From NCBI GenBank assembly GCA_027487315.1, contig JAIYDW010000106.1, positions 1-43,323 of the forward strand: DNA of 43,323 nt, in the 5' to 3' direction. Of this stretch, positions 3,384 to 34,131 are shown piece by piece. The translations under genes and the position numbers were made by a program. Numbering within the stretch: the stretch's first letter is position 1; each line of letters begins with the position of its first letter. Under the pieces are notes generated by a model. That model was given only the letters and a program-made list of their open reading frames with translations. It made no database searches and was not told the origin of the DNA. This DNA is from Verrucomicrobiaceae bacterium. GTDB lineage: Bacteria; Verrucomicrobiota; Verrucomicrobiia; Verrucomicrobiales; Verrucomicrobiaceae.

Positions 3384-6263
3384 GTGTTCGCCTCCCGAAT
3401 GTCCCCCGGCTCCATCGTTTCCTGTCGAAATCGCGACTGGGTTCTGCTTCCCGCAGATGACCCAGACGAGATTCGATTGCGTCCGCTGACTGGGGCCACC
3501 GATGAAGTCGTAGCACTGAACCGAAAGTTGGCGGACCTGGCAGGCGACACTTTCCCGGCAGAGCGAGTCAAATCCTCACAATTTCCTCCCCCGGCGGCCA
3601 CAGACATTTCCGATGCCTCATCGGCGCACCTCCTTTGGCAGTCCGCACGCCTTACGCTGCGCGAGGGAGCCGCCCCATTTCGCTCGCTAGGCCGCGTTTC
3701 CATTCGACCGCGCACCTACCAGTTTGTGCCGCTGCTCATGGCTCTGCGCCTGGAGACCGTGCGTCTTCTAATCGCCGATGACGTGGGCGTGGGGAAAACC
3801 ATCGAGGCAGGGCTTATCGCTCGTGAAATGTGGGACCGTGGCGAAATCCGTCGCCTTTGCGTGCTCTGCCCACCTTACCTCTGCGAGCAATGGCAAAAGG
3901 AACTCTCGGAGAAGTTCAATCTCGACGCCGTCATCATTCGCTCTGGAACCGTTGGCCCTCTGGAGCGCAAAAAGTCCGGCCCAGAAAGTATTTACCGCTA
4001 TTACCCAATTCAGATCGTCAGCATCGACTTCGTCAAATCAGAGAGGAACCGCCACGCCTTTCTCCAAGACTGTCCCGATCTCGTTATAGTGGACGAAGCG
4101 CATGGATCAGCTTTTGCGGAGGGCACCACTTCCGGGCAGCATCAGCGCCACCACCTCGTGAAGAGGCTCGCGGACAAAGAAGATCGCCATCTCATCCTCT
4201 TGAGTGCCACCCCACACAGCGGCGTGGACAGTGCTTTCCTCTCACTTCTTGGACTCTTGCAGCCTCAGTTTGTGAACTGGGACACCTCCCACCTCGACGA
4301 AGCCCAGCGCATCGCCCTCGCCCGTCATTTCGTGCAGCGCACTCGCAAGGACATCACCACCGACTGGGAGGGGGATCATTGTTTTCCTGACCGTGATCCG
4401 CGTGATGAGACGTACCGTTTATCGACGGCGTACCGTGAACTGTTTGAGCAAAGTTACGCCTTCTGCGCTGAACTCGTCCGTCCTGCGAAGGACCGTAACG
4501 AGCGGGAACAGCGCGTGAGGTACTGGGCTGCTTTGGCGCTGCTGCGCTGTGTCATGTCCAGCCCTGCGGCTGCAATGTCAGCGCTCGAGAACCGTCACGA
4601 TGGCCTGCCCGCCTCAGAAGATGACCCAGAGTTCCGCCAGCACATCTTCGAGTCCTCGGATGACCGCACCGACGACAGCCAGCCCACACCACCGCTGGAG
4701 CTTGCCCGCGAAACCATCGTCGAATCGGAGCGCCGGCGTTTAAGGGAACTCGGCAAGCTAGCCTCCGCCCTCGTCCACTCCCCAAAGGACAGCAAGCTCG
4801 CCCGCTGTATCGAGATCGTAGCCGACCTCATCGAAAAAGGCTTTCGTCCCATCCTCTGGTGCCGTTACATCGCTACGGCGGACTACCTCGCTGCCGGGCT
4901 GCAAAAAGCCCTTCAAAAGCGCTTCCCCGGCCTGCGGGTGCTCGCCATCACTGGCACCCTCAGCGACGACGAACGCCGCACTAAAGTCGAAGAACTCTCC
5001 GCCGAGAAGCTCCGCGTGCTCGTCGCCACGGATTGCCTCAGCGAAGGCATCAACCTTCAGCACGCTTTCGACTCTGCCCTGCACTACGACTTGCCTTGGA
5101 ATCCGAACCGCCTGGAGCAGCGCGAAGGCCGCGTGGACCGATACGGCCAGCGTGCTCCCACCGTCCGCACCATTCGCTATTTCAGCCCCGACAGCGCCGT
5201 GGATGGCGTGGTCATCGACGTGCTGTTGAACAAAGCCCGCGAGATCCACAAAACTCTCGGCACCCACGTTCCCGTCCCCGAGGACAGTGAATCAGTAACG
5301 GAGGCAGTGCTGAAAGCTCTCTTCCTTCGCGGCCAGCCCAAATTGGTATCCTCCGACATTCAGCAGCTCGAACTCGGTCTCGGCAGCTCCGATGTGGAGG
5401 ACTTTCACCGCCGTTGGGACATCGACGCCAATCGCGAGAAGCTCAACCGCACCCGCTTCGCCCAGCGTGCCTTGAAGCCCGCTGAGGTCGCCCGCGAGCT
5501 TGAGGCCACCGATGCCGTTCTCGGCGATCCTGAGGCGGTGCGCAGCTTCGTCCTGGATGCCGCTCAGCGACTCGGCATGACGCTTCAGCGGGACAAACAC
5601 ACCGACAGCTACACCATTCCCATCGCCCCCGGCACCATCGAGCACCTGCCTGAGGCTGTTCGTTTCGTCTTGCCGAAGTCAAAAGCCGCCGCGTGGCACA
5701 TCAGCTTCGCTTCCCCGACACCCGAGGGCGCGGAGTATCTCGGGCGGAATCACCGCTTCGTCACCACCCTGGCTCAGTTCCTCATGGAGGAAGCCATGAC
5801 CAAAGGCGGCGACGCCCGTGCCTCCCGCTGCGGTGTCATCCGCACCCGCGCCATTTCGAAGCTCACTACCCTCCTGCTTCTTCGTGTCCGCTATCTGCTG
5901 AAGCAGCCTGACCGCGCCGATCTCCTCGCGGAGGAAGTCCATGTCATCGGCTACCTCGGAGCTGCGCCGTCGAAAGATGGCGACTGGCTGCCTGAGGAGG
6001 CCGTTCTCCATCTCCTCGCCTCGGCGGAGCCCGATGCGAACATCAGCATGGAGGAGCGCCGCGAACTCGTCTCCCGCACGCTCGACTCGTGGCCCGCTCT
6101 CCAGGAGGCTATGAAGCCCCAGATTCTCGCCCGCGCCACGGCCCTGGCAGATAGCCACCGTCGCATCCGTCAGGCCGTCTCCATGCGTGTGCGTGAACTC
6201 AAAGTCGAAGCCCAGCTCCCGCCCGACCTTCTCGGCGTGCTCATCCTCCAGCCTCTCGTCTAG
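3384..6263 (+). CDS. DrmD-like SNF2-family helicase
   Basis: This 959-residue protein is the first gene of the operon. It has an N-terminal domain with R-P-R-T-Y-Q, then a Walker A motif D-D-V-G-V-G-K-T-I-E-A-G-L at about 130-142. D-E-A-H follows at about 237 and L-S-A-T-P-H-S-G at about 272. A C-terminal helicase lobe has V-A-T-D-C-L-S-E-G-I-N-L and Q-R-E-G-R-V-D-R-Y-G-Q at about 547-588. This is the RapA-like SNF2 class to which DISARM DrmD belongs, and DrmD is normally paired with an adenine methylase as here. The role would be ATP-driven DNA translocation and surveillance. The GTG at 3384 and an in-frame ATG at 3399 are both possible starts; the ATG gives the more DrmD-like beginning, M-S-P-G-S-I-V. 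The stop is 3 bp before the methylase ATG, so translation is probably coupled. Confidence 0.85.
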   Translation: MFASRMSPGSIVSCRNRDWVLLPADDPDEIRLRPLTGATDEVVALNRKLADLAGDTFPAERVKSSQFPPPAATDISDASSAHLLWQSARLTLREGAAPFRSLGRVSIRPRTYQFVPLLMALRLETVRLLIADDVGVGKTIEAGLIAREMWDRGEIRRLCVLCPPYLCEQWQKELSEKFNLDAVIIRSGTVGPLERKKSGPESIYRYYPIQIVSIDFVKSERNRHAFLQDCPDLVIVDEAHGSAFAEGTTSGQHQRHHLVKRLADKEDRHLILLSATPHSGVDSAFLSLLGLLQPQFVNWDTSHLDEAQRIALARHFVQRTRKDITTDWEGDHCFPDRDPRDETYRLSTAYRELFEQSYAFCAELVRPAKDRNEREQRVRYWAALALLRCVMSSPAAAMSALENRHDGLPASEDDPEFRQHIFESSDDRTDDSQPTPPLELARETIVESERRRLRELGKLASALVHSPKDSKLARCIEIVADLIEKGFRPILWCRYIATADYLAAGLQKALQKRFPGLRVLAITGTLSDDERRTKVEELSAEKLRVLVATDCLSEGINLQHAFDSALHYDLPWNPNRLEQREGRVDRYGQRAPTVRTIRYFSPDSAVDGVVIDVLLNKAREIHKTLGTHVPVPEDSESVTEAVLKALFLRGQPKLVSSDIQQLELGLGSSDVEDFHRRWDIDANREKLNRTRFAQRALKPAEVARELEATDAVLGDPEAVRSFVLDAAQRLGMTLQRDKHTDSYTIPIAPGTIEHLPEAVRFVLPKSKAAAWHISFASPTPEGAEYLGRNHRFVTTLAQFLMEEAMTKGGDARASRCGVIRTRAISKLTTLLLLRVRYLLKQPDRADLLAEEVHVIGYLGAAPSKDGDWLPEEAVLHLLASAEPDANISMEERRELVSRTLDSWPALQEAMKPQILARATALADSHRRIRQAVSMRVRELKVEAQLPPDLLGVLILQPLV

Positions 6264-6266
6264 TTC

Positions 6267-9200
6267 ATGGCCATTTTCCCTTCCATACGCATTGAAGGCG
6301 GCCTGCTGGGGCCGGACATGCTGGATCAGCTTTTCACGGGCAATCTCTCCGGTCAGAAACCCGCTGACTTCGGTCTCGCAGATCGCCGGAATCTCACGGA
6401 CGAAATCGCCGCCGTTTTTGCCGATGCCCGATCGCTCTGGGGTGTGTTTCAAAACCGCCTCGCCCGGCTCAATGAGGACGACCTCGCCACCACCGTCACC
6501 CGCGATGCGTGGGTCATTCCCTTTCTGGGACTGCTGGGATTTGAGCCGCGCTTGAATCAGCGCGCCCATGATGTCGATGGCCTCAGCTTCTTCATTTCCC
6601 ACCGGTCAGGAGAGCAGGAGGATGAACCGCCCATCCACATCGTCGGTGCGCGGCAAGAGCTGGGCCGTGTCGCAGCCAGTGGAAAGCCACGCCTCGCCCC
6701 GCACTCCCTCGTTCAGGAGTATCTGAACCGCACCGAGCATGTCTGGGGCCTTGTCACCAATGGCACCACGCTGCGCCTGCTGCGGGATTCATCCTTCGTC
6801 CGCCGCCAGTCCTACATCGAGTTCGATCTCGGGGCCATACTGGAGGAGCAGCGGTTTCAGGACTTCGCCGCGCTCTACCGCCTCATCCACCGCAGCCGCT
6901 TCCCGCGTGGCCTCAGCGACGCCGGCGACTGCCTGTTGGAGACCTACCACCTCCAGGCCGAGGAGCAGGGCGGCCGTGTCCGTGATCACCTCCGCGATGG
7001 CGTGGAGCGCTGCATCACCCTCCTCGCCAATGGCTTCCTCGATCACCCTGCCAGCGCCCCCTTGCGCGAGCGCATGGCGTCGCGGCTCATGTCTTCCGAG
7101 GACTTTTACCGCGAGCTGCTGAAGCTCGTCTATCGCTTCCTATTCCTCCTCGTGGCCGAGGATCGCGGTCTGCTCAGCCCTGCGCCCATTTACCGTGAGC
7201 ACTACGGCGTGAACCGCCTGCGCCGACTTCTGGAGCAAAGGGCCGCCTATACCGAGGATGACGACCTCTGGCAGGGCCTTCGTGTGCTCTGGCATTTGTT
7301 CGGGGATGACAATCTCGCCTCCATCCTCCAGCTCGCTCCCCTGAATGGCGAACTCTTCGCCCCCACCACGCTGGACGGTGGCTCCATCAAGAATCGCCAA
7401 CTCCTCACCGCCTTCTGGCACCTCGCCTGGTATCAGGAGCGGGAGACCGCCCCCGCCACGCGGGTGAACTACGCCGCGCTCGATGTCGAGGAGCTGGGCT
7501 CCATCTACGAGAGCCTGCTGGACTTCCACCCGCACTGTGCGCCCGACCTCGCCGGACGTTGGACCTTCCAGCTTGTCTTCGGCTCCGACCGAAAGACCAC
7601 CGGTTCCTTCTACACCCCGCCAGAGTTGGTCAATGAACTTGTCCGCAGTGCCCTTGATCCCGTCGTGAACGCTCGTCTCGCCGCCCTGCCGAAAAATGCC
7701 ACCCCTGAGATGCGGGCCGAGACCCTGCTCAGCCTCCGCGTCTGCGACCCTGCTTGCGGCTCCGGACACTTCCTGCTCGCCGCTGCTCGTCGTCTGGGCC
7801 GCGAACTCGCCCGCGCCCGCACAGGAGAGGACGAGCCTGCGCCCGAAAGAATGCGGGAGGCCACTCGCGAGGTCATCCGCCATTGCATCTACGGCGTGGA
7901 CCGCAATCGCCTCGCCGTGGACCTCTGCCGTGTTGCTCTCTGGATCGAGAGCCATGATGCCGACAAGCCCCTCGCCTTCCTCGACCACCGCATCCGCTGT
8001 GGTGACAGCCTCATTGGCGTCTTTGATCTTGAAGTGCTGAAGGACGGCATCCCCCAGGAAGCCTTCACCGCCCTCAGTAGCAGCGACGACAAAAAGTTCG
8101 CCCGTGAGGCTGCCAAGAAAAACAAAGATGACGTTGGCACCCTAGGCAGCCTCTTCCAGTGGAGCCCAGACGCCGCACTCTCCAAGCTCACCCTCGACGG
8201 CCATGCCGTGGACGAGCTGGACGACGACACCCCGGAGCATGTGCGGCAAAAGAAAGCCCGCTACGAGTCCATCCACCACGATCCTGAGTGGCAGCGCCTC
8301 CATGACGCTTGCGATCTCTGGACAGCCGCCTTCTTCCAGCGCCTGCGTGCGGATGAATCCCTCATCACCACCGCTAGTGTGGCGGACCGTCTCGCCGACA
8401 GGTCTCACGACATTGATCACTTGGAGTATGCCCAGGCTCTCGCCCGCCGCCAGCGTGCCTTCCACTGGCCGCTGGAGTTCCCCGAGGTCTTCGATGCTGG
8501 TGGCTTCCATGTCATCCTTTCCAATCCACCTTGGGAGCGTGTGAAGCTCCAGGAGCAGGAGTTCTTCGCCGCACGGGACATCAGTATCGCCACCGCACTG
8601 AACAAGTCAGAGCGGGCCAAACTCATCCGCGATCTGCCGAACCATCATCCTGAACTCGCGGAAGAGTGGGACATTGCGCAACGCAGTGCGGCAGCTTCCT
8701 CCAGCTTCATGCGCCATGCAGGGCGCTATCCGCTGGCTGGGCGTGGGGACATCAACACCTATGCCGTTTTTGCCGAACTCGCCGGCAAACTGACGCATCA
8801 GACCGGGCGCACGGGAATGATCCTACCCACCGGCATCGCCACTGATGACACCACGAAGATCTTCTTTGGCGACCTCGTGCGGAAGCAGCGGCTAGTATCC
8901 CTGACTGGCTACGAAAATGAAGCCTTCATCTTCCCCGCCGTGCATCATGCCTTCAAGTTCTGCACGCTCATCGTAGCGGGAGAAGGGCGTGGCCCGGCCT
9001 GCAGCCGACTTGCCTTCTTCATTCGCCGTTTCAGTGAACTGACCGAGGAAGCCCGCTTCTTCACGCTCACGCCAGATGAATTTGCCTTGCTCAATCCCAA
9101 CACCGGCAACTGCCCCATCTTCCGCTCCGCCGCCGATGCGGAGCTGACCAAGGCCATCTACCGCCGCGTTCCCGTGCTCTGGAAAGAGCGCTCAGAAGAC

Positions 9201-10580
9201 TCAAAAGAATCGAATCCTTGGCAACTCAGCTTTAAAACGCTGTTTCACATGGCGAATGACTCCCATCATTTCCGCACGGAGGACCAGCTCAGCGCCGAGG
9301 GCTACCGGCTGGAGGGGAATGTTTTTGTCAGCGCCTATGATCGCTATCTGCCGCTTTATGAGGCGAAGATGCTGCATCAGTTCGACCACCGCTTCTCCAC
9401 CTACCAGGGCGCTACAGATGCGCAGCTCAGGATGAAGACCCTGCCGCGCTGCACGCCTGCGCAGAAGACTGATCCGCGCTTCACCGCCCAGCCCACCTAC
9501 TGGGTGCGGGAGGAGATCGTCGAGTCCGCGGTCCCTCATTATCCCGAGGCCATACACATGGCCCTCACCTTCGGCTCGAAGACCAGCCTGCAACGCTTCT
9601 TCTGCTACTGGTGCGCCGGCTGGTTCATCAATCGGGATGAGAAGAAGCGCGGCCAGGAACTGCTGGACCTCGCCATGTCCTTTGACCTCGACGACAAACT
9701 CAACAGCTACCTGCGCGGCATCACCGCCCCACACTACGCCGCCGAAATGGAAGCCCGCTTCCCTCTCACCGCAGACGATGTGATAGCCATCCGCGCGAAT
9801 TTCAAGGAGCCCGAAGACATCGCCCGCGAGTTGGTTGAGAGGTTCAGCCCGAAGTGGTTCTTGGGTTGGCGAGACATCACGAACACCACCAACCAGCGCA
9901 CCACGATTTGTAGCGCTGTCCCGAAATCGGCGGTTGGTGATACCTTTTTGCTCATCGTGCCTACGCACCCTGCGACGCGTAAACGGTTCGTGATCTTGGA
10001 GGCGTGCCTAAATGCTTTCGTCCAAGATTTTGGTGCCCGGCAGAAGGTGGGTGGCACACACATGAAGTACAATGTGTTCCGCCAACTAGCAGTCCTGCCA
10101 CCGGATGCATTCGATAAGCCATGTGCCTGGATGACGGGGCAAAGCCTCGCAGACGTCCTCCTCCCCCGAGTTCTGGAGCTTGTTTACACCTCCCACGACC
10201 TAACCGTTCTGGCGCGGGACTGCGGCTACGATGGGCCGCCATTTGTCTGGGATGAAGACCGCCGCTTTGAGATCCGCTGCGAGCTGGATGCTGCATTTCT
10301 GCACCTCTATCTTCCCAGCACCAACACCGGCCACTGGCAGCCCGCCCCCGGCGAGACCGCCGCCGCCCTCTCCGCCCTCCAAAACGCCTTCCCCACCCCC
10401 CGCCACGCCGCCGAGCACATCCTCAACACCTTCCCCCTCATTCGCGAAGCCGACGAAAAACTCCACGGCCACTACCGCACCCGCGACCGCATCCTTACCC
10501 TCTACGACGCCATGCTCACCGCCCAGCGCACGGGCGCAGCCTTTCAATCCAGCCTGAGCCCAATGCCTGGCTCCCAATAG
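6267..10580 (+). CDS. DrmMI-like / Eco57I-type N6-adenine DNA methyltransferase (1437 aa)
   Basis: This very large methylase has Y-T-P-P-E-L-V at about 447. The SAM-binding motif I, D-P-A-C-G-S-G-H-F, is at about 493-501, and the catalytic N-P-P-W is at about 752, which together define N6-adenine methylases. A roughly 440-residue N-terminal region precedes motif I, and a long C-terminal region probably holds target recognition. The class occurs as type IIL/Eco57I enzymes, BREX PglX and DISARM DrmMI. With a DrmD-like helicase immediately upstream and no BREX genes (pglZ, brxC) anywhere in the window, DrmMI is the best match. It would mark host DNA as self. No clear nuclease motif was recognised, which argues against a self-contained restriction enzyme. 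The next gene starts 11 bp downstream. The last 100 codons are more C-rich than the rest. Confidence 0.85.
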   Translation: MAIFPSIRIEGGLLGPDMLDQLFTGNLSGQKPADFGLADRRNLTDEIAAVFADARSLWGVFQNRLARLNEDDLATTVTRDAWVIPFLGLLGFEPRLNQRAHDVDGLSFFISHRSGEQEDEPPIHIVGARQELGRVAASGKPRLAPHSLVQEYLNRTEHVWGLVTNGTTLRLLRDSSFVRRQSYIEFDLGAILEEQRFQDFAALYRLIHRSRFPRGLSDAGDCLLETYHLQAEEQGGRVRDHLRDGVERCITLLANGFLDHPASAPLRERMASRLMSSEDFYRELLKLVYRFLFLLVAEDRGLLSPAPIYREHYGVNRLRRLLEQRAAYTEDDDLWQGLRVLWHLFGDDNLASILQLAPLNGELFAPTTLDGGSIKNRQLLTAFWHLAWYQERETAPATRVNYAALDVEELGSIYESLLDFHPHCAPDLAGRWTFQLVFGSDRKTTGSFYTPPELVNELVRSALDPVVNARLAALPKNATPEMRAETLLSLRVCDPACGSGHFLLAAARRLGRELARARTGEDEPAPERMREATREVIRHCIYGVDRNRLAVDLCRVALWIESHDADKPLAFLDHRIRCGDSLIGVFDLEVLKDGIPQEAFTALSSSDDKKFAREAAKKNKDDVGTLGSLFQWSPDAALSKLTLDGHAVDELDDDTPEHVRQKKARYESIHHDPEWQRLHDACDLWTAAFFQRLRADESLITTASVADRLADRSHDIDHLEYAQALARRQRAFHWPLEFPEVFDAGGFHVILSNPPWERVKLQEQEFFAARDISIATALNKSERAKLIRDLPNHHPELAEEWDIAQRSAAASSSFMRHAGRYPLAGRGDINTYAVFAELAGKLTHQTGRTGMILPTGIATDDTTKIFFGDLVRKQRLVSLTGYENEAFIFPAVHHAFKFCTLIVAGEGRGPACSRLAFFIRRFSELTEEARFFTLTPDEFALLNPNTGNCPIFRSAADAELTKAIYRRVPVLWKERSEDSKESNPWQLSFKTLFHMANDSHHFRTEDQLSAEGYRLEGNVFVSAYDRYLPLYEAKMLHQFDHRFSTYQGATDAQLRMKTLPRCTPAQKTDPRFTAQPTYWVREEIVESAVPHYPEAIHMALTFGSKTSLQRFFCYWCAGWFINRDEKKRGQELLDLAMSFDLDDKLNSYLRGITAPHYAAEMEARFPLTADDVIAIRANFKEPEDIARELVERFSPKWFLGWRDITNTTNQRTTICSAVPKSAVGDTFLLIVPTHPATRKRFVILEACLNAFVQDFGARQKVGGTHMKYNVFRQLAVLPPDAFDKPCAWMTGQSLADVLLPRVLELVYTSHDLTVLARDCGYDGPPFVWDEDRRFEIRCELDAAFLHLYLPSTNTGHWQPAPGETAAALSALQNAFPTPRHAAEHILNTFPLIREADEKLHGHYRTRDRILTLYDAMLTAQRTGAAFQSSLSPMPGSQ

Positions 10581-10591
10581 AATGCGACGCG

Positions 10592-12421
10592 ATGATTAAG
10601 GAAGTCCGCCTCCAAAACTTCAAACGCTACCGCGATCAGGTCTTCACTTTTAGACCTGATGGAATCACGTTACTCGCGGGAGGAAACAACTCTGGCAAGT
10701 CCACGGTGCTCCAGGCGCTTGCTGTCTGGGAGTTTTGTCGGGCGTTGGTTGAAGCTGCAAAAGGTCGTCGTGCTTTGAACGCGGGTGTGCGGACCGATCC
10801 GGCTGGAGTGAGCAATGAGGAGTTTTCGCCGATTGCGCTGCCGTCTCTAGAGCATCTTTGGACAAACCTTGATGGAAAACCAATGGTCGCAGATGCTGAA
10901 ATTGACCCGACCTATACTCTACGCATCTCAGTGACTTGGGATGTCGAGGCGGCCGTAGTGGAAGGACAGCCCCAACCACCATCCGTGGAGCACCAGCTTC
11001 AATTTGGCCTTAAACTCCTTCATCATCACGTATATGTGAAGCAGACCAACTCGACGCTCCAGGATGCCACACCAATCCCTCGGTTTGCATACTTACCGCC
11101 ATTTGCAGGGATTCAAACTCGTGAGGAGAGGATGTCCCCAGCGGCCCAAAAGCGGTTGATCGGGCGTGGACTAGCGGGTGCCGCGCTGCGAAATGTGATC
11201 CATGACTTGCACCGCCGAAGCGAAACAGAGTTTGCGAACCTTCGAGGCGCACGGCGTCGAATGAGCGTGGTAGAGCGTCAACAGTTCTTTCGCCGAGATC
11301 CTTGGTCTCAGTTGGTGGACGTTCTCCAGCGAGTGTTCCAAGCAGGACTTGCAGTTCAGCCCTTCAATGACGATTACAACACCGTCCTGCATGTGGACTT
11401 GTTTCGTGGCAATTTTCAGAACGGAAACTTCACGAGATTCGCAAATTTCACCCCTCGTGACATCATGGTTGAAGGCAGCGGTTTCCTGCAATGGCTGAGC
11501 GTGTATGCCCTGGCAGTGTCCCCAGAGATCAATATTCTTCTCCTCGACGAGCCAGATGCCCACTTGCATCCGACACTGCAAGCTCACCTCCTTGAGAGGT
11601 TGCGCGCGCTTGCTGTAGAGAACCGAAAGCAGGCTCTATTAGCGACTCATTCAACGGAGATTCTGCGACAGGTTGATCATCGAATGATTTTTGAGTTTAG
11701 CCGAAATCGAACGGGATACCTCGTGCAAAGTGAACAGCGAGTTGGGTTGTTCCATGGACTTGGTAGCGACTATGCACCGAAACTAGATCAACTTCGCCAA
11801 CACCGCCGTGTCATCTTCGTTGAAGGCACGTTCGAGGAGCCAATCCTGCGGATTTTCGCAGAGAAAATGGGACAGCCATTACCCCAGAATCTTGTGTTCT
11901 GGATTTACAATGGTGAACACACCCAGCGTCGCGTCTTATTCGAGCAGTTGCGCACTGAGATTCCAAACCTGAAAGGTATGTCGTTGCGAGACCGCGATTC
12001 TTTGGAGCTTGCGGAAGTTAACGCAAACCTCACCCAGAATAACTATCCTGATCGCAACGAATTGAGAATGAGAACATGGAGACGACGACAGATGGACAAT
12101 TACCTCCTCCTTCCGGCTGCCATCTCTCGTGCAGCGAATCGCCAGGAGGCTGATGTAACGCAGTTTTTCGCCGATCATTGGGGCCTCGCGGTGGGAGCCA
12201 ATCCTACAGCATCGAATTGTTCTCCCGGTTTGCTTGACGCAAGGGGGAAGGAGATTCTGACAGAAGGTCTGCCAGCGCGAAACCTTGAACCCGCAAAGCC
12301 CTCTGTGGAATCTGCATTGGGGTGCTCTCGTCATGATGTAGCACGCCATTTTGAAGCTGCCGAAGTCCCCGAGGATGTGCGTTTGATCGTTACGCAGCTT
12401 CATGCGCTTTGTCAGCCTTAA
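10592..12421 (+). CDS. OLD-like ABC ATPase with TOPRIM-like C-terminal region
   Basis: This 609-residue protein opens like SMC/RecF/OLD ATPases (M-I-K-E-V-R-L-Q-N-F-K-R-Y). The Walker A motif G-G-N-N-S-G-K-S-T is at about 29-37, and a signature-like V-E-G-S-G-F-L-Q-W is at about 292. Walker B L-L-L-D-E-P-D-A-H-L-H-P is at about 315-326, and the H-loop A-T-H-S is at about 351. After the ATPase lies V-I-F-V-E-G-T-F-E-E (about 408) and then L-R-D-R-D-S (about 466), the Glu and Asp-x-Asp pattern expected of a TOPRIM nuclease domain. OLD-family proteins are ATP-regulated DNA nucleases used in anti-phage systems. This is not a standard DISARM component, and its fixed position between methylase and CBS gene makes it part of the operon. 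The TOPRIM assignment is an inference from spaced motifs. Confidence 0.75.
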   Translation: MIKEVRLQNFKRYRDQVFTFRPDGITLLAGGNNSGKSTVLQALAVWEFCRALVEAAKGRRALNAGVRTDPAGVSNEEFSPIALPSLEHLWTNLDGKPMVADAEIDPTYTLRISVTWDVEAAVVEGQPQPPSVEHQLQFGLKLLHHHVYVKQTNSTLQDATPIPRFAYLPPFAGIQTREERMSPAAQKRLIGRGLAGAALRNVIHDLHRRSETEFANLRGARRRMSVVERQQFFRRDPWSQLVDVLQRVFQAGLAVQPFNDDYNTVLHVDLFRGNFQNGNFTRFANFTPRDIMVEGSGFLQWLSVYALAVSPEINILLLDEPDAHLHPTLQAHLLERLRALAVENRKQALLATHSTEILRQVDHRMIFEFSRNRTGYLVQSEQRVGLFHGLGSDYAPKLDQLRQHRRVIFVEGTFEEPILRIFAEKMGQPLPQNLVFWIYNGEHTQRRVLFEQLRTEIPNLKGMSLRDRDSLELAEVNANLTQNNYPDRNELRMRTWRRRQMDNYLLLPAAISRAANRQEADVTQFFADHWGLAVGANPTASNCSPGLLDARGKEILTEGLPARNLEPAKPSVESALGCSRHDVARHFEAAEVPEDVRLIVTQLHALCQP

Positions 12422-12434
12422 CAATTCTCGCTAG

Positions 12435-14108
12435 ATGTCCCCCACACTCAAAGACCTTCTCCCTCCCGATCAGCAACCGCTCACGATTCAGCCGCACGAA
12501 TCCGTGATGGAAGCCATCGAACGGCTGCGTGCTCATCAATACAACCAGCTTCCTGTCGTTGATGACCAAGGGCGCTGCCGTGGCGAGGTGGTGACTTATG
12601 AAACGATTCTTCATGCTGCCCTGGCGTTCGAGACCGAACCGGCAAAGCTCAAGGTCAAAGACGCCACCAAACGCGTGCCCACCTATGGGGCCGACGACGA
12701 TCTGCTGACCACGCTGGATGCGATTCAGCGCAGCGACTTTGCTCTGATTTTGGGAGAGGAAAAAAAGCTAACCGGAATCGTCACTACCGCTGACACCACG
12801 GCGTATTTCCACAAGTATGCAGGTGACCTCATGATGATCGAAGGGGTGGAGGTCAGCATCAAGGAGGCCATCGAGATCCTTTACGGCGGGCTACAAGAGC
12901 CCGCGCTGACCGAAGCTATCGAATCAGTAACAGATCGGGCCTCTGACACACGCAAAAAGCTGCCAGCGGCGATCAAAGCCTATCTCGGAAAAATGAATAT
13001 GGCGCCGCCACAAGGTGACGAAACCGAGGCTTTGGCCTTAGCCGAGACGAAGCTCAACTTGCCCAAAGCTGGCAAACCCTTCGACCGACTCACCTTCGAC
13101 GAATACACCGACATACTGCTTCGCCATCCGAAGGCTCCTCGTGTCGGAGAAACCGACAGTGCAGCAACAATTAGGAAGCTCCTGCACACCGTTCGAGATG
13201 CGCGCAACAAGCTGGCGCACTTCCGTGGTGACGTTACTATTCGCGAACGAGCGGACATTAAACTTGCCGCTGAATGGCTCGAACGGCATCAACCAACGCC
13301 GCTTCCACTACCTACACCAACTCCTACTCCTCGCCCCAATGATTTTGATCTTGTGGCATCGAATCCTCCCTACGAGAATAAGGGGGAAGAGGACTCAACA
13401 CCCCAAGGCAAGTATGCAGCACTTTCAAAGCACCTCGGTGATATGGACTCATCCGCCGAAAGCTGCCTAATGACCTTTACCGACATCGAGAAGCTGCTGA
13501 ATGAGAAGCTTCCCGAGTCTGCTTATGAATATCGGGCATGGTGGGCCAACGATCCGTCCAAACCTCATGCAGCCGGATGGTTGGCTCAAGGCTGGAAGGC
13601 TCAGTCACTCAGCATGTCGGAAAAGCGGCTCACTTTTGTCCGAACGGATGACCGGCAGAGGGCCTACATCGCTTTCTTCAGCCGCCTCAACACACTTGTG
13701 GCAGAGCACCCAGAGTTTCCGCTGCGCAATCTCAGCCCCCAAGGACAGAATTGGCAAACGCTGGCCTCTTTACAGGCTGTGGGAATGCAGACGGCTGACA
13801 TTGTAGGTGCCTTTGTACGTCAAGGCAGGTTCAGAATCGAACTCTATCTCGATGACTCCAATGAACTGGCTAACAAAGCACGCTTTGATGCATTGAATGC
13901 TCGCCAAGTCGAATTTGAACAAGCTTTCGGGGAGCCTTTGGCGTGGGAACGCCTCGAAGGCCGTCGCGCCTGTCGAATTGCGATCTACACCGCTGCAAAC
14001 ATTCTAACCGACAGCGAAAACGAGGAGGTGCTGGAATGGGCCGTGAACAAAGCCCGCGCATTCCACCGCGTGTTTGCGTCAGAGTTTGGAATCCTGGCCC
14101 GGGACTAA
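12435..14108 (+). CDS. CBS-pair protein with HEPN-like motif and DUF4268 C-terminus
   Basis: This 557-residue protein has three visible parts. Residues about 14-125 form two CBS repeats (first E-S-V-M-E-A-I-E-R-L with N-Q-L-P-V-V-D; second with F-A-L-I-L-G and L-T-G-I-V-T-T-A-D). CBS pairs usually bind adenine nucleotides or SAM and regulate an attached domain. Residues about 215-285 contain D-A-R-N-K-L-A-H-F-R-G, an R-x4-H motif typical of HEPN ribonuclease or Swt1-like domains. Residues about 345-555 contain a W-W-x-N segment and then a DUF4268-like region with F-R-I-E-L-Y-L-D and L-A-W-E-R-L-E. A Pro-Thr linker lies at about 290-300. The protein may be a nucleotide-sensing effector or regulator of the operon. 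Start ATG is 13 bp after the ATPase stop. The exact function is unknown. Confidence 0.7.
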   Translation: MSPTLKDLLPPDQQPLTIQPHESVMEAIERLRAHQYNQLPVVDDQGRCRGEVVTYETILHAALAFETEPAKLKVKDATKRVPTYGADDDLLTTLDAIQRSDFALILGEEKKLTGIVTTADTTAYFHKYAGDLMMIEGVEVSIKEAIEILYGGLQEPALTEAIESVTDRASDTRKKLPAAIKAYLGKMNMAPPQGDETEALALAETKLNLPKAGKPFDRLTFDEYTDILLRHPKAPRVGETDSAATIRKLLHTVRDARNKLAHFRGDVTIRERADIKLAAEWLERHQPTPLPLPTPTPTPRPNDFDLVASNPPYENKGEEDSTPQGKYAALSKHLGDMDSSAESCLMTFTDIEKLLNEKLPESAYEYRAWWANDPSKPHAAGWLAQGWKAQSLSMSEKRLTFVRTDDRQRAYIAFFSRLNTLVAEHPEFPLRNLSPQGQNWQTLASLQAVGMQTADIVGAFVRQGRFRIELYLDDSNELANKARFDALNARQVEFEQAFGEPLAWERLEGRRACRIAIYTAANILTDSENEEVLEWAVNKARAFHRVFASEFGILARD

Positions 14109-14120
14109 CGAAGTAATACA

Positions 14121-17100
14121 ATGAGCGTCTTTGCCCTCCACCAATCCGTCCTCTCAGACTACCGCGACTTCGTGCGGTCGTTCTTCTCCGTGAACGACGA
14201 CCGGGCACGGCAGTATGTGGAGCAAGCACTCGACCAAGAGAGTCGCTTGTGGCCTGACTTCCTCCTCCAAGTTAGTCCATCGTATGCCCGCGTCTCCACG
14301 GTGGACGACCTCGCCGCCCGAGGTGTGCTACATCCTGAGACGGCTCGAATATTCCGCACGGCGGAGGGGCATCCCTTCCACCTGTATCATCATCAGGTGG
14401 GCGCACTGGAACGTGCAGCGAGTGGCGGCAGCTATGTCGTGACCAGCGGCACAGGATCGGGCAAGAGCCTGACGTATTTCCTTCCCATCATCGACAACCT
14501 GCTGCGCAATCCACCCACGGGGGATCGCGTATCGGCGCTTGTGGTGTATCCAATGAACGCGCTAGTGAATAGCCAGGTGCAGGCGCTGGAGAAACTGCGC
14601 ATGGACTACGAGCGCCGGACCGGGGCACACTTTCCCGTCACCTTTGCCAAATACACAGGGGAGACTGCAAACAACAGCCGTCAGGACATGAGACTGCAAC
14701 CACCTCAGATCATGCTCACGAATTATGTGATGGCAGAGTTGCTGCTCGTGAGGCCTGAGGATCAGCGGTTCCTCGACCACGCTGGCGGTGGCCTTCGTTA
14801 CCTCGTCTTCGACGAACTGCATACCTACCGTGGCCGCCAGGGGGCGGACGTGGCGCTGCTGATTCGCCGTCTGAAGGAGCGCTGTGCCGCGCCCAACATG
14901 ATCTGTGTGGGCACCAGCGCAACGATGGTCTCCAGCCGCAATGCGACGCCCGTCGAGCGGCGGACTGCCGTGGCGGAGTTTGCCACGAAACTCTTTGGCC
15001 AGCCTCTTACCGAGGCTCAAGTCGTGGAAGAAACCCTTGAGCCCTACACCCTCGGAAACGCGCCATCCTTGCATGAACTGGCCCAAGTGGTGGCCGCTCC
15101 TCTACCCGCGCTGGCCTTGCATGAGTTTCGACATCATCCGCTGGCCCGCTGGGCGGAGTCCGAGTTCGGCGTGGAACCGGAACCGGGGGACCAGACCCGA
15201 CTGCGCCGACGCGTGCCACGCACTCTGGCTGAAGCGGCGGGACGGCTTGCTGAGGCCAGCGGAGCCGATGCTGATGTATGCCTGCAACGCCTGCAGGAGG
15301 TGTTGACTCGTGGAGGCGAGCTGGACCGTGAGGACGGTGGACGTGCCTTTGCCTTCAAACTACATCAATTCATCGGCCAGGGCCGGGCGCTCTTTGCCAC
15401 GCTCGAAGACACGGCTTCGCGGGAGTTCTCCATGGAGGGTCAACTGCTCGCCGGCGAGGGACGCATCTTTGCCCCGATCAAATTTTGCCGTCAGTGTGGG
15501 CAGGACTACTACCATGTGCTGAAACCACGCCAGGGGGACCGACTCCAACCGCATCCTGTGGGGGCAGAGAGCGAAGACGAAGACCTGACCAAGGGCTACC
15601 TGATGCTGGCCCCAGCCGAGAATGATTGGAGCACGGATCGCATTCCCGACGAGTGGCGTGATCCACGCGGGCGACTCAAGCCGACATGGCGCGAGCGTGT
15701 GCCCGAGGCAGTTTGGGTCTCGCCCAATGGCAACTTCAGCGGGACAGAACGCCCTGGAGCCATCAAAATGTGGTATCAGCCGCAGCCTTTCAGTCTGTGT
15801 CTATGCTGCGGAGAATACTATTCGTCGAGGGAGAAGGAGTTCGGGAAACTGGCCTCGATCTCCAGCGAAGCCCGAAGCAGCGCAACCACGGTGCTCGCTA
15901 CGTCCTTGCTCCGACACTCGGGAGGTGAAGGCAACCCACGAGACAAGCTGCTGACCTTTACCGACAACCGCCAGGATGCTTCACTCCAGTCCGGGCACTT
16001 CAATGACTTCGTCCATGTATCCCTCCTGCGTTGTGCGCTGTATGGGGCACTCCAACAGCAGCCGACGCTGACTTTTGATCGAGTGGCAGAGGCGGTCGTA
16101 GCGGCCTCCGGCCTCAGCGTTGACCACATCGTCCACGAGCGCAATGCTGGGCTCGATCCCAATTCGCAGGCGGCCCGCGAAGTGATGCAGGCATTTACCG
16201 AACTCACCGAATACAGGCTCTACGAAGACCTCCGCCGGGGCTGGCGAGTCGTGCAGCCGAACCTGGAGCATGTGGGCCTGCTCAGGGTTGGGTATCGGGG
16301 GCTGGACGAAGCCTGTGCTAATGCCAATGCATGGGCCTTTCACCCCGCCGCCGCAGCCCTGCCACAGGAAGAGCGCAGAATCATCGTGAAGGCGATCTTG
16401 GACCACTTTAGGCGCAAGCTTGCCATTGCCAGCCGCTGCCTTCAGGAAACGCCACAGCAGCAGCTACGCCGGCGCTCTGAGCAGCGCCTGAACGAGTTCT
16501 GGGGCCTCGATGAGTCGGGAATGGAACTTCGGCAATCGACGAGGTTTGTGTTGCTTGGGGATTCGTCCCGCGCTGTCGAGGGATTTAGCCTCAATCAACG
16601 AAGCAAGCTGGGCCGGTTCATCTGCCAGCGCCTTCACCTCGATGCCTCGGAGTACAACGGTGTCGCTGGCCGCCTGCTGGATTTGCTAGCTGGGCAGGGC
16701 TTGCTTGCCCGCCTTGATCCTGTGGACGACCACCGCTTTTTCCAGCTCGATGCCTCCTGTCTGCTCTGGCAACTGGGCGACGGCTCACCGCCCATTCCTG
16801 ACCCTCTGTATTCTCGTCGTGCAACGGCGGACGGCTACCAGGAGGTTCCAGCGCCCGTGAATGCATTCTTCGTGCGGTTTTATCGGGAAACAGCAGCCAG
16901 ACTGGCAGCGCTTGAAGCCCGAGAACATACTGCGCAGGTCGTCAAACAAGGTGAGCGTGAGCGCCGGGAACGACGTTTCCGCTGGGAGGAGCGAGACACC
17001 ACCAAGGAGCGCGACGGGCTTCGTCGTCTGCCCTATCTTGTTTGCTCACCCACGATGGAACTGGGGGTGGATATTGCCGATCTCGACCTTGTCCACATGC

Positions 17101-19223
17101 GCAATGTGCCACCGACGCCGGCGAACTACGCGCAGCGAAGTGGTCGTGCCGGACGCCAGGGCCAGCCGGGATTGATCTTCACTTATTGCGGCGCGCTCAA
17201 CAGCCACGATCAGTATTACTTCCGCAACCGCACCGAGATGGTGGCTGGAAGCGTGAAACCTCCACAAATCGAACTGGCAAACGAGGCTCTCCTTATCGCC
17301 CACTTGCACGCCGTTTGGCTGGGGCAGGTGCGTTTGCCTCTGGGAACTTCCATCGAGGACACCATCGAGACCGAAATCGAAGGATTGCCGCTGAAGGAGA
17401 ATGTTCGGCAGTCCATCGTCTTGTCGGACACTGACCGCGAGCAAGTCAGAGCCAGAGTGCGCCGCCTTTTCGAGGCAGACGCCGGCACCCTCGAAAGCTG
17501 CGGCTGGTTTTCCGATGTATGGATCGACCAAGTGCTGCGAGATGCTCCCACCGCGTTCGATGTCGCCTTCAACCGCTGGAGAGAACTTTACCGCGCTGCC
17601 ATGAGGCAGATGATGGAGGCCCAAAGTGCCGTCCTCCGTGCAAGGCAACGCGACGAGCAGGAGATCGCGCGGCGGAGGGCAGACGAAGCCTTGCGGCAAC
17701 TCAATTTGTTGCGCCAGATCAGTGTTTCTCGTGAGGAGGGCGACTTTTACCCCTATCGCTATCTTGCAAGTGAAGGGTTCCTCCCCGGTTACAACTTCCC
17801 AGCCTTGCCTGTTCGGGCCTGGATTCCACGAGAGGATGGAGAGTTCATTCCTCGGCCTCGATTCCTGGCGCTGAGAGAGTTTGCCCCCGGCAACTTTGTT
17901 TACCACGAAGGCCGGCGTTGGGAGGTCAGCAGTTTTCAAGCTCCTCCAGGAGGATTGGAAGAGAGGCGCAGGCAAGTCAGACTCTGCCGCACCTGTGGGG
18001 CTTTCAGTGATCCAACCTTGGACCGCTGCCCGAACTGCGACACTCGCTTCGCTGCTGACAACTCCCAGTCCACCACGCTGCTGGATATGCCCAACGTCCG
18101 CTGCCGTCCTCGCGAGAGGATCACCTGCGATGAAGAAGAGCGTCTGCGCCGTGGCTACGACTCCGAGACCGTCTATCAGTTTGCCCGAACGGCAGGCGGA
18201 ATACCTCGAACACAGGAGGCTGATGTCGTCGTGAACGGCACGCCCGTGATGCGATTGATCTATGGGCCTGCGGCCACCGTCCTCCGTATCAATCACGGCT
18301 GGCGTGCGGCTCCGCAGCCCGGATTTTTGATGGATTTCGAGAGTGGTGAAGTTTTCCACGCGGCTCCCCCAAATGCTGGTGCCGCACCGCCAAGACCACG
18401 CCGTCTGGAAAGAATCAGGCTGGCCGTCCAAGGCACCCAGAACGTGCTGGTTGTGCGCCTGCTACGCCCAGAACTCACCGCTGTGGAAACCAGCCTGCAA
18501 TACGCCCTGCTGAGGGGTTGCGAGCAATTGTTCCAACTTGAGGAGGCTGAGCTGTCTGCTGAACGAATTGGCTCGGGAGACCACCGCGCCATTTTGCTTT
18601 ATGAGGCATCGGAAGGTGGTGCAGGTGCCCTGCGGCGTCTGGTGGACCCAGGCATCCTCAACCAAGTGGCGAGCGAGGCTCTTGTGCGCTGCCACTACGA
18701 TGAGCATGGCAACGACCAGCGCACGCAGTGTGTCGCGGCGTGTTATGAGTGCCTCATGAGCTTCGGCAACCAGCATGAAGCTGCATCTTTGGATCGACGG
18801 CAGATTCGCCAGCACCTCCTTAATCTAGCTGGGGGGCAGGTTCTCCCACGAATCGGCGGAAGAGATTGGCATGCGCACCTCGCTTGGCTTCGATCACTCA
18901 CAGACTCACGCTCGGAGATCGAGCGACGGTTTCTCGATGCATTGGCGGACGGTCAACATCGACTCCCCGACGAAGCACAACGCGGCATTGATCACCCCCG
19001 CTGCATTCCAGACTTTTTCTATCAGCCAAACATCTGCGTTTTTTGTGATGGATCTGTGCATGACACACCCGGTCAAGTTCAGCGTGATCAGGAGATTCGC
19101 AGCGAACTATTGTTACGCGGATACCGAGTAATCGCCATTCGGTACGATCTGGACTTGAATGAGCAACTGTCAATTCATCCAGATGTTTTCGGAATCGGGC
19201 GGAGTCCAGGCAACATTCGTTGA
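14121..19223 (+). CDS. Giant DExH helicase with DUF1998 and Vsr-like nuclease domain (DrmA/DrmB- or DruE-like)
   Basis: In this 1700-residue protein the order is as follows. Walker [10 protein letters not shown] is at about 108-116, D-E-L-H at about 231, and G-T-S-A-T at about 263. Two Cys pairs (C-R-Q-C-G, C-L-C-C-G) lie at about 455-560. The second helicase lobe includes T-D-N-R-Q-D-A-S at about 613 and M-E-L-G-V-D-I with [10 protein letters not shown] at about 977-1013. A zinc ribbon C-x2-C...C-x2-C is at about 1290-1307. A DUF1998 region ends in C-V-A-A-C-Y-E-C-L at about 1537. A final 100-residue domain carries I-P-D-F-F and V-F-C-D-G-S-V-H-D (about 1628-1646), matching the Vsr pattern P-D-I-V and F-V-H-G-C-F-W-H. 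Helicase plus DUF1998 recalls DISARM DrmA plus DrmB, or Druantia DruE. The start ATG is 12 bp after the CBS gene. It is the last gene of the operon. Confidence 0.82.
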
Positions 19224-21469: not shown

Positions 21470-22117
21470 TCAGGTATATGCATTTTTTTGTTTTCTCCGC
21501 TTCCAGGTGCGTTTCGCCTTCTTGCCGAAAGCCTCAGCGAACCGGGGATGTGACTGCGCGATGAGGAACGCCCATCTCCAGAAAAAAAACTCATTGGGGC
21601 ACGAGCTTTCGGCGATCCGGGCCAAATCAGGGTTGGCTTTTGTTACTTTCTTTACAGCGATCTCCCGCTTCTTGATGCTCGGGCTCCTGCCGCCAAGTAA
21701 TGCTCTCCAGCAGGCGGCAGCAGAAGCAGGAAATCTTTTCGGCGGTTTAATGGTATCACTTCCAGGCCAGTTCTTGGCCTCATGCAACATCAGAAGATAA
21801 TCATCAGGGTGAGTTTTTGGAGAGTGAACTTCAACGCCTGGATTGGCAAACCGCAGCTCTTCAGCTTGTTTCTCCGTATGTGCCCAAATCGGAGCCGCGG
21901 GCTTCCCTTCTTCACTCAAACGAAGCGCTGCCTGCTGTAACAGTTCAATGGCGCCATCGATATCGGCCTGCTTTTCGCCCTTCATCACAGCGAGAGACAC
22001 CGAGATCTGAGCCACTTCAAACGCAGTAGGTGATGAAGACTTCATCGGAACGGCGCCCATTGATACTGCAGACTTTCCAGGGCCGAAAGGCAGCCCGAAA
22101 GGAAAACGCTTGCTCAT
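21470..22117 (-). CDS. Island protein of unknown function downstream of the integrase
   Basis: This 215-residue protein begins with the ATG that overlaps the integrase stop (ATGA), so both are made from one transcript. An N-terminal Gly/Pro-rich stretch is followed by a helical region (I-D-G-A-I-E-L-L-Q-Q-A-A-L-R-L). The C-terminal third has W-R-A-L-L and W-R-W-A-F-L-I-A and a strongly basic tail rich in K and R, compatible with DNA binding. No known family is recognised. Coupling to the integrase suggests a role in integration or its control, but this is inference. Confidence 0.6.
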   Translation of the reverse strand: MSKRFPFGLPFGPGKSAVSMGAVPMKSSSPTAFEVAQISVSLAVMKGEKQADIDGAIELLQQAALRLSEEGKPAAPIWAHTEKQAEELRFANPGVEVHSPKTHPDDYLLMLHEAKNWPGSDTIKPPKRFPASAAACWRALLGGRSPSIKKREIAVKKVTKANPDLARIAESSCPNEFFFWRWAFLIAQSHPRFAEAFGKKAKRTWKRRKQKNAYT

Positions 22118-23280
22118 GCTGCCACCCCCTTCAGAGAAATGATGTTGCTTGGCTGCTTGGCGGTGGGGAGGATGGCAAAGTATTTCGCCCCCTCACCTGG
22201 CTTCACCAACCCTTTGTAATGGGTCTCCAGGACCGCGACATCGTGGCCTAGCTGTGCTGCAACCATGGCGGCGTTCTGGTGCAAGTCGTAGGCATAGGAG
22301 GCGCAAGAATGACGGGCGGCATTGTGGGGCCATTCGGTGATCTCTGCCGCCGTCCTGGCTACCTCTAGGCGGTCCCTCCAGATTTGTGCTGACGGCGCAA
22401 CCGGACCTTCCAACCGGACGTGCGGGGCCAACCATTGTTTGAGGTTGTCGGGCATCGTTACGACTCGACGCCGACGAGTCTTGGCGTTCTTGGCTGAGAC
22501 GGTAATGCATCCGTGTTCAACGTCCACATTGCGCCAGTCCAACCGGGCGATCTCAGCGGCCCTCAGTCCACCAAAGAAACCGATGGCGAGCGGGGCGGCG
22601 ATCTCGACGGGCGCGGCATCCAGCAAACGCTGAACCTGTTTGACCGACAGGATACCCGGTTCCTCGGCGGTCACAGTGGGAACCGTGTAACGGGCGGCGG
22701 CGTTCATACTAGCATATCCACGCTCAACACTCCAGGACAGGAAAACGGAAATCAGGCGGTGATGATTTGCCACTGTGACGCCACCCACCTTCAAACCGGA
22801 AAGGTAGCGTTCGACATCTGCTTCGGTGATCTCTGCCACCAACTTCTTCTTTTGTGCCGTGGCAAACTTTTGCAATCGCCCCTCGACATCCTGCAAATAG
22901 CGCTGGCTGCGATTCTCCCTCACTTTGGCGGCGTGAAACTCATCGTAGGCTGTCAGTGTGGGGACGGAAACGCGGCGCGCCTCCAGATGGGCCGCATAGT
23001 GCCTCAATGCAGATTCAATGCTGAAGTCAGCAATACCCTGCGCCCGATACTCGTCAGCCATATCGCGGGAGAGAATTACCGCCGCTCGCTCCGCTTCGGT
23101 GAATTCACCGTGCCGCCTGCCCTCGTTGAGCAGTTCAACCTTCTTCTCGTTGGCGAACTCTTTCGCGTCGGCTTTGGTGAGGAAGTAGCGCTGCTTGTAA
23201 TCCCGCCCTTGGCGGTAGGTGACACGGACCTTGTAGCGAGGATGACGGCAGGGTTTGATGGTGACCAGTTCCTTTTTCAT
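22114..23280 (-). CDS. int: Tyrosine recombinase (island integrase)
   Basis: From the ATG at 23280 the protein has 388 residues (an ATG at 23295 would add five). It begins with a short basic arm-binding domain (K-P-C-R-H-P-R-Y-K-V-R-V), followed by a SAM-like core-binding domain (about 85-190). The catalytic domain then has the first Arg in G-G-L-R-A-A-E-I-A-R-L, a Lys in the A-K-N-A-K-T-R-R-R-R beta hairpin, H-N-A-A-R-H-S-C-A-S-Y, G-H-D-V-A-V, and the nucleophile Tyr in E-T-H-Y-K-G-L. All catalytic residues are present, so it should be active. It reads away from attR, and its upstream region is the 49-bp end module plus attR, so integrase binding there could repress its own gene. Confidence 0.93.
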   Translation of the reverse strand: MKKELVTIKPCRHPRYKVRVTYRQGRDYKQRYFLTKADAKEFANEKKVELLNEGRRHGEFTEAERAAVILSRDMADEYRAQGIADFSIESALRHYAAHLEARRVSVPTLTAYDEFHAAKVRENRSQRYLQDVEGRLQKFATAQKKKLVAEITEADVERYLSGLKVGGVTVANHHRLISVFLSWSVERGYASMNAAARYTVPTVTAEEPGILSVKQVQRLLDAAPVEIAAPLAIGFFGGLRAAEIARLDWRNVDVEHGCITVSAKNAKTRRRRVVTMPDNLKQWLAPHVRLEGPVAPSAQIWRDRLEVARTAAEITEWPHNAARHSCASYAYDLHQNAAMVAAQLGHDVAVLETHYKGLVKPGEGAKYFAILPTAKQPSNIISLKGVAA

Positions 23281-23291
23281 TGCGCCAAGTT

Positions 23292-23340
23292 GCACAAAAA
23301 TGCACAGAAAAGCAACTCATTTCCATTACAAAACCATTAC
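23292..23340 (+). repeat. Right copy of 49-bp end module with paired CCATTAC sites
   Basis: It is collinear with the copy at 2984-3032. GCACAAAAATGCAC is at its start, and CCATTAC at 23323-23329 and 23334-23340 has the same 11-bp period. It lies between the integrase start and its likely promoter. Confidence 0.7.
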
Positions 23341-29345: not shown

Positions 29346-30307
29346 ATAATCCTTGGTCAGCAATCAATAAACCGGCTTCAGATTTTAATGTTCGCCTGGT
29401 TGACCATCATCATCCCCTACTTCTTTACTGGGGAGTGGATGTGCGTAATCGATATGCCTTTGTCTATGATGAAGAGGTTCTGGCCATGCCTGAACAAAAA
29501 TCGCTTCCCAGTCTATCTGGCATCTCCACCACAGTTGTGATGCAAGGGGAGCGAGCAAAGCTTGTCCTAATTCTCAACGAAACGGCGAACTGGGAGTTGT
29601 TTCATGCTTTATGCTGTGACATCGTTCGAGCTACAGCTCAAGTTACCGAAGCTTCGCATGGCCCTTCCATTGTTCTACGTAGACTGAAGCGCTGGCAGGA
29701 TTTCCTGAAAAAGGAGCGGTCGGGCCTGCTTCCGATGGAGAAGATCAAGGGACTTATTGGAGAGCTCCTTTTCTTGTCTGGCCCCGTGGCTTCGTCCTTT
29801 GGATGGAATGATGCGGTGACGTTTTGGAAAGGCCCCGAAGACGCGCCTCAAGATTTTGCTGTCCATGATACAGCCGTCGAAGTGAAGTGCCAAACGGGGG
29901 GATCAAAACCCTCGGTTCGAATTTCCTCCGTGGAACAGTTAAGCCCTCAGCTGCCGAAGGCATACCTTGTCGTTTATACGATCGCATCGGCTTCCGGGGA
30001 GGAATCGACTCATTTTAATCTCAACAGTTTGATCGATTCGATCCGAGAAGAACTAGCCACTTCTTCCGAGGTCGCACGCGAGCGTTTTGAGGACCTTGTT
30101 TATCTCGCCGGCTACATTTCATCCGAAAAATACCTTGAGTTTCACTTCACCAAAATCGCGGTGAAGTGCTTCAAAATAGTCGAAGGTTTTCCGCGAATTT
30201 CACCTTCCACTGTCCCTCAAGGCGTGGACTCACTCTCGTACGTTCTGCAACTCGATGCTTGTGCCGAGTATGTAGATAAACCTCATTGGTGGAGCATCGA
30301 ATCATGA
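29342..30307 (+). CDS. PD-(D/E)XK nuclease-like protein (DUF4420 type)
   Basis: This 321-residue protein has a putative active site at about 172-184: Q-D-F-A-V-H-D-T-A-V-E-V-K-C-Q, in which Asp and the E-x-K of the PD-(D/E)XK fold are present. An upstream helix L-I-G-E-L-L-F-L (about 139-146) supplies the usual conserved Glu. Proteins of this type are the predicted restriction nuclease of GHKL-Z1-AIPR clusters. It overlaps both neighbours as ATGA (29342 and 30304), so the four products are probably made in fixed ratio. The family assignment is by motif and context. Confidence 0.82.
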   Translation: MNNPWSAINKPASDFNVRLVDHHHPLLLYWGVDVRNRYAFVYDEEVLAMPEQKSLPSLSGISTTVVMQGERAKLVLILNETANWELFHALCCDIVRATAQVTEASHGPSIVLRRLKRWQDFLKKERSGLLPMEKIKGLIGELLFLSGPVASSFGWNDAVTFWKGPEDAPQDFAVHDTAVEVKCQTGGSKPSVRISSVEQLSPQLPKAYLVVYTIASASGEESTHFNLNSLIDSIREELATSSEVARERFEDLVYLAGYISSEKYLEFHFTKIAVKCFKIVEGFPRISPSTVPQGVDSLSYVLQLDACAEYVDKPHWWSIES

Positions 30308-32376: not shown

Positions 32377-32455
32377 CCCTTCCATGTATTGGCAGTGGAT
32401 AAAATGAAATGGGAATTAGCAACGATCCGAATCAAGACTTAAACAACCATCAATA

Positions 32456-34003: not shown

Positions 34004-34016
34004 TTTTAATTAAACC

Positions 34017-34037
34017 GCGCCACTAGGCGCACTTTTT
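34017..34037 (+). terminator. Terminator hairpin between methyltransferase and vsr
   Basis: GCGCC and GGCGC pair around ACTA, followed by AC and a run of five T. It sits 14 bp after the methyltransferase stop, between convergent genes. Confidence 0.6.
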
Positions 34038-34131
34038 GACTGCGTATCTTCTCGGGCGAATTCTCTACGTAGCTCGTCCCGAGCGGTCTTGTCAGATTTC
34101 GCCGAATAAGGCGGCGAACGAAAGCTGCTCC

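Follow-up and report, generated by a model that had tools for sequence, protein, structure and literature searches.

A predicted EDxHD nuclease domain on the YprA-family helicase of a probable ARMADA type I-like operon from a Verrucomicrobiaceae bacterium

ARMADA was defined in a September 2025 preprint by Bell et al. (PMC12458937), the main text of which describes the C-terminal domain of the type I and type II helicases as a predicted active Vsr-type nuclease. The type II system of E. coli was reported there as anti-phage and non-abortive, with a requirement for the Walker motifs of ArmC and the NPPW motif of ArmB; the mutants made in that system were aimed at Walker motifs (in ArmA, ArmC and ArmD) and at methylase motifs (in ArmB). 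The DruE proteins of Druantia types I to III are, like ArmC, YprA-family helicases with a C-terminal nuclease fusion, comprising two phospholipase D (PLD) domains in type III and an inactivated Vsr in types I and II according to the same text. The locus described here lies in a window of 43,323 nucleotides, the whole of the analysed stretch of contig JAIYDW010000106.1 from a Verrucomicrobiaceae bacterium, and its central gene (14121-19223, plus strand) encodes a YprA-family (DUF1998) helicase, hereafter ArmC, with a C-terminal EDxHD nuclease domain. The initial annotation had considered such a tail unusual for helicases of this kind. Given the tails described for ARMADA I/II and for DruE of Druantia I/II, it is not; the fusion was already described in 2025, and the protein of the window is a further member.

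Analysis of 14121-19223 showed a single open frame of 1700 amino acids. Pfam matched DEAD at residues 91-270 (E 1e-20), Helicase_C at 942-1014 and MZB, the current Pfam name for DUF1998, at 1459-1545 (E 2e-7). The best PADLOC models were those of Druantia DruE (DruE3, 302 bits). A structural model of residues 1070-1700 (predicted local distance difference test score, pLDDT, 82.4) showed a helical finger followed by a canopy-like module and the nuclease domain. The predicted coiled-coil finger comprises residues ~1093-1198 (17397..17714; helices 24-129 of the model). The OB-CON-DUF1998 canopy module comprises residues ~1221-1570 (17781..18830), with one CxxC..CxxC zinc module (1289/1303), and the predicted model of this module aligned by VIA-align with MrfA (6znp; Z 12.9 over 227 residues) and with DISARM DrmB in 7s9v (Z 9.3). 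With regard to the BrxA-like helical domain after RecA1 and the zinc beta-barrel in RecA2 of ARMADA helicases, the sequence shows two further CxxC-type motifs, CRQC at 456 and CLCC at 560. Within the same model, the nuclease domain (residues ~1594-1691; 18900..19193) gave a Z of 9.3 to I-Bth0305I and 7.9 to Vsr. By computation, a YprA/MrfA-type superfamily 2 motor, a finger, a canopy and a nuclease domain with four predicted catalytic positions intact are thus present on one chain. The single open reading frame (ORF), the Pfam domains, the tail fold and the EDxHD residues bear out the initial annotation, which had placed helicase, DUF1998 and a Vsr-like nuclease on one 1700-residue chain.

The tail of the window's protein taken alone matched no Pfam family, and a PDB search with this single sequence returned no match. 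The 41 homologous tails were more informative, with matches to DUF559 in 33, to MTES_1575 in 28 and to Vsr in 11; this set includes one wrong-frame ORF row (L051 18769-19113), which was excluded from the cleaned 32-row alignment. Columns invariant in 32/32 rows include E31, D61, D73, G74, H77 and D86, corresponding to E1601, D1631, D1643, G1644, H1647 and D1656 of ArmC. The predicted catalytic residues (18921..19088) are E1601 (18921-18923), D1631 (19011-19013), H1647 (19059-19061) and D1656 (19086-19088); the likewise invariant D1643 is encoded at 19047-19049. The window also contains a genuine Vsr on the minus strand (34132-34566; TIGR00632, 146.8 bits, cut-off 97.9), as first proposed. The alignment of the tail with this Vsr showed shared invariant columns that include Vsr E25, D51, H69 and D98, the EDxHD set, a family whose active site has been described as PD-(D/E)xK-like (PMC3943268). 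In hhalign, the tail profile against the window's Vsr gave an E-value of 0.0016, yet a probability of only 16% in this pairwise test. The motifs on which the initial annotation had based its parallel to Vsr, IPDFF (residues 1629-1633) and VFCDGSVHD (residues 1640-1648), are present, the likeness exceeds chance and the EDxHD columns align; the spacing differs, however, being D-G-x-x-H (4 residues) in the ArmC tail and H-G-x-x-x-H (5 residues) in Vsr.

The AlphaFold2 model of the tail (mean pLDDT 88.4, predicted template modelling score 0.81) showed a PD-(D/E)XK fold; an unrelated fold would have refuted the initial annotation. With an E-value of 3.6e-3 and a probability of 1.0, two chains from the catalytic domain of the EDxHD homing endonuclease I-Bth0305I were the top Foldseek matches. 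VIA-align gave a Z of 9.0 to I-Bth0305I (3r3p; root-mean-square deviation 2.6, 89 residues) and of 7.5 to DNA-bound Vsr (1cw0; root-mean-square deviation 2.7, 92 residues), and several lower-ranked rows were other nucleases of the same superfamily. As a Z below 8 may reflect merely a common arrangement, the case for a nuclease rests on fold and residues jointly. When the window was compared with its 92% relative, the Verrucomicrobiaceae metagenome-assembled genome (MAG) L054, the ratio of nonsynonymous to synonymous substitution rates was 0.064 for the tail and 0.041 for the body, so the tail is under purifying selection. The tail is predicted to be a PD-(D/E)XK domain of the EDxHD type with an intact active site. 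It shares fold and four catalytic positions with Vsr and I-Bth0305I, from which it differs in being fused to a helicase.

ArmC is the last gene of an operon whose preceding genes are separated by gaps of 3-13 bp. The first gene (3384..6263, plus strand) encodes a 959-aa ArmA-like SNF2 helicase of BrxHII/RapA/DrmD type (PADLOC DpdE 654, DrmD 328 and BrxHI/II 220 bits; NCBIfam DrmD 363 bits, below the cut-off of 610). It is followed by an ArmB-like Eco57I N6-adenine methyltransferase of PglX/DrmMI type (6267..10580, plus strand, 1437 aa; Pfam Eco57I 2.6e-15, PADLOC DrmMI 287 bits), which is also matched by PglX models. Between this gene and armC lie two plus-strand genes, here called the slot genes. 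The first (10592..12421) encodes a 609-aa OLD/GajA-like AAA ATPase (Pfam AAA_15 2.6e-21, AAA_21 1.4e-18), and the second (12435..14108) a 557-aa CBS-DUF7662-DUF4268 protein that is DS11/PDC-S11-like (Pfam CBS, DUF7662 and DUF4268; NCBIfam DS11 92 bits, below the cut-off of 260).

This operon is probably ARMADA type I-like, in the reversed order armA-armB-[slot]-armC, with 14121-19223 as its ArmC subunit. The ARMADA features present are an ArmA-like helicase, which co-occurs in most relatives, an ArmB-like methylase, a YprA-like helicase with a fused OB-CON-DUF1998 module, a coiled-coil finger between RecA2 and that module (the long helices predicted at ~1093-1198) and a C-terminal Vsr-type nuclease that is predicted to be active. 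Type I is indicated by the single CxxC..CxxC pair in the OB-CON region and by the lack of ArmD, as no large plus-strand ORF lies directly downstream of 19223. Identity was 33-40% to operons in YprA-first order versus 23-24% to the type II-like-looking L052 and L053. Relative to type I as described in the main text of PMC12458937, the window shares the BrxHII-like helicase, the PglX-like methylase and the YprA-like helicase with Vsr-type tail, finger and an OB region that carries one zinc insert. Its reversed order is a variant reported there for many archaea and cyanobacteria, whereas that main text makes no mention of a pair of additional genes at the armB-armC junction.

DISARM and Druantia were ruled out as the home of the operon by gene content. 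DISARM has DrmD-like and DrmMI-like partners and a DrmB-like canopy fold in common with the window's operon; however, its DrmA and DrmB are split, whereas helicase and DUF1998 form one protein in the window and the nuclease is fused to it. No PLD family match to indicate the nuclease DrmC was found by Pfam among the operon genes. PADLOC scans of the operon genes identified no Druantia partners, including DruH; ArmA-like and ArmB-like genes are present instead, and the tail is of the EDxHD type.

Across bacterial and archaeal genomes, the scan recovered 80 loci, a set that was enlarged by further whole-genome searches. Six close relatives (58-92% identity) were found in MAGs named Verrucomicrobiaceae, Gemmataceae, Verrucomicrobia, Deltaproteobacteria, Acidobacteria and Anaerolineae; this distribution over phyla suggests horizontal transfer. 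The remaining loci are mostly from Actinomycetota, with ~37-40% identity and the order helicase-armA-armB, and full-length homology of ArmC to YprA-armA-armB operons extends over Actinomycetota and other phyla. One close relative (L059, 58%) likewise has the order helicase-armA-armB, and gene order has therefore changed within the window's branch. In several actinobacterial operons (L065, L074, L081, L092, L097), the C-terminal part of ArmB (window residues ~1170-1437) was encoded apart from the rest, by one gene or two located downstream, an arrangement that points to exchangeable target-recognition modules.

Helicase motifs, as judged by the Walker A lysine and the DEXH-box DE, were intact in all 140 homologues. 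The EDxHD residues were intact in 81 of the 140 and broken in 59, although a few residues of the most diverged tails may be wrongly placed through alignment errors, and related Streptomyces account for many of the broken rows. On a FastTree phylogeny of the protein body, with the tail columns excluded, the EDxHD state changes at least 8 times. The count alone gives no direction, and the changes are read as probable losses because regaining four residues is unlikely. All 23 members of the window's clade, which covers several phyla at about 50-92% identity, have the residues intact. Broken tails often retain a recognisable fold; in L219, for example, PDFFY..CDGSVHD has become PHFFY..CHEAGQS. No co-directional neighbour family that might represent a replacement nuclease gene was present in more than 8 of the 59 loci with broken tails, a weak test in which the neighbours were clustered without annotation. 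A standalone tail in G008/L051 (18777-19085, 62% identical to the window's tail) was rejected as a free nuclease gene; it has no clear start, is preceded by a DruE-like helicase and one more ORF, and was read as a remnant or fragment. The ArmC genes of L171 and L184/L235 are disrupted by frameshifts or stops and apparently belong to decaying systems. HEC-01 A and B genes were identified immediately upstream of the broken helicase gene in L171.

The slot survey covered the 15 operons of the window's branch for which the stretch read contains armA, armB and armC in this order. Of these, 14 had an armA-armB junction shorter than 600 bp and 13 an armB-armC junction of more than 1.1 kb. The window's slot is occupied by the OLD-like ATPase and CBS-DUF4268 genes, and that of L054 by an orphan 626-aa gene unrelated to the window's ATPase together with a CBS-DUF4268 gene 81% identical to the window's. 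L056 carries IetA and IetS (6317-9982; 237 and 191 bits), an apparently complete pair with gaps of ~9-18 bp, L058 a PIN-like gene with PDC-S01 (302 bits), and L169 PDC-S19, a ParA-like gene and PDC-M56A. The slot of L207, a type I-branch operon, encodes an ArmD-like 1440-aa protein with UvrD motifs (8076-12395), the N-terminus of which is RelE-like, by eye only, as in type II ArmD. The slot was empty in L055 and L170, and some others contain only possibly spurious ORFs. A YhgA-like (Transposase_31) gene was seen in the slot of L167 (11437-12420), and L168 has two ORFs (7586-9004, 9672-11114) that share 91-93% similarity with this gene. Spacing and common strand suggest that slot genes are co-transcribed with the ARMADA core.

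From these data we tentatively propose, at a little under even odds, a combined reading in which the armB-armC junction of this ARMADA type I branch would be a dedicated cargo slot for whole second defence modules co-transcribed with ARMADA (IetAS, PDC-S01 with the PIN-like gene, PDC-S19/M56A, OLD-ATPase with CBS-DUF4268, ArmD-like UvrD) and the ArmC nuclease an optional part, repeatedly discarded while motor and tail fold are kept. Both the repeated loss of the active site and the variable slot go beyond the account in the main text of PMC12458937.

A mechanism can be outlined on this basis. ArmB would methylate host DNA as a self mark, and ArmA and ArmC would engage phage DNA that lacks the mark or contains single strands. 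ArmC might then translocate 3'-5', as MrfA does, while its tethered tail would nick or cut the DNA along the track. Cutting may be an aid to the motor and not the core of defence, because many relatives have retained the motor, together with a tail fold in degenerate form, despite loss of the active site. The initial annotation had placed the cutting activity directly on the motor; that is plausible here, where the site is predicted intact, but it does not extend to the family. Several observations weigh against cutting by the tail along the track. The 59 homologues with broken residues mean that cleavage by the tail is non-essential to the family, and the structural matches of the tail, middling in Z, are not proof of activity. 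The structures of Druantia III DruE on DNA place its C-terminal nucleases away from the DNA channel (PMC13192584), and the coupling of cutting to translocation is therefore unproven. No Vsr-site mutant is included among the mutants given in the main text of PMC12458937.

The same losses bear on the alternative that the tail is a pseudo-nuclease with a mainly structural role, in DNA binding or in holding an ArmC oligomer, and that another component or the motor alone stops the phage. The repeated loss of EDxHD residues from tails that are still recognisable in fold, as in L219, favours such a role, and the inactivated Vsr tails of Druantia I/II described in the main text of PMC12458937 offer a precedent. 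Pure scaffolding would not, however, need the four residues that are intact in all 23 members of the window's clade, and we consider a pseudo-nuclease unlikely for this protein. It is less likely still that the slot pair does the cutting, either as a nested independent module or as an ARMADA effector, with the tail as an accessory. Both slot genes are part of the operon, 11-13 bp from their neighbours, complete defence modules occupy the same position in other clade members, and OLD-family ATPases are often defence effectors. The slots of L055 and L170 are nevertheless empty and those of others hold unrelated genes, which indicates that the core system does not need the pair. A tail nuclease that assists the motor remains our preferred reading.

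Elsewhere in the window, two Band_7/SPFH-domain genes (366-1373 and 1738-2763) lie upstream of the ARMADA operon. A second restriction-like cluster (25160-34566) includes a Z1 helicase (26448-29345), a DUF4420 putative PD-(D/E)XK protein (29342-30307), an AIPR abortive infection protein (30286-32376), a C5 cytosine methylase (32456-34003) and the minus-strand Vsr mentioned above. A phage-type integrase (22114-23295, minus strand) lies between the two defence clusters and may mark a mobile element.

The analysis identifies, by computation, the tail of a defence helicase as an EDxHD nuclease domain and names the residues to mutate. In the published ARMADA mutants, as given in the main text of PMC12458937, the motors and the methylase were targeted and the nuclease was left untouched. 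Since the motor is always intact while tails occur naturally in intact and broken form, it can be tested directly whether cutting is needed or translocation alone, and the armB-armC slot is a place in which further defence modules may be sought.

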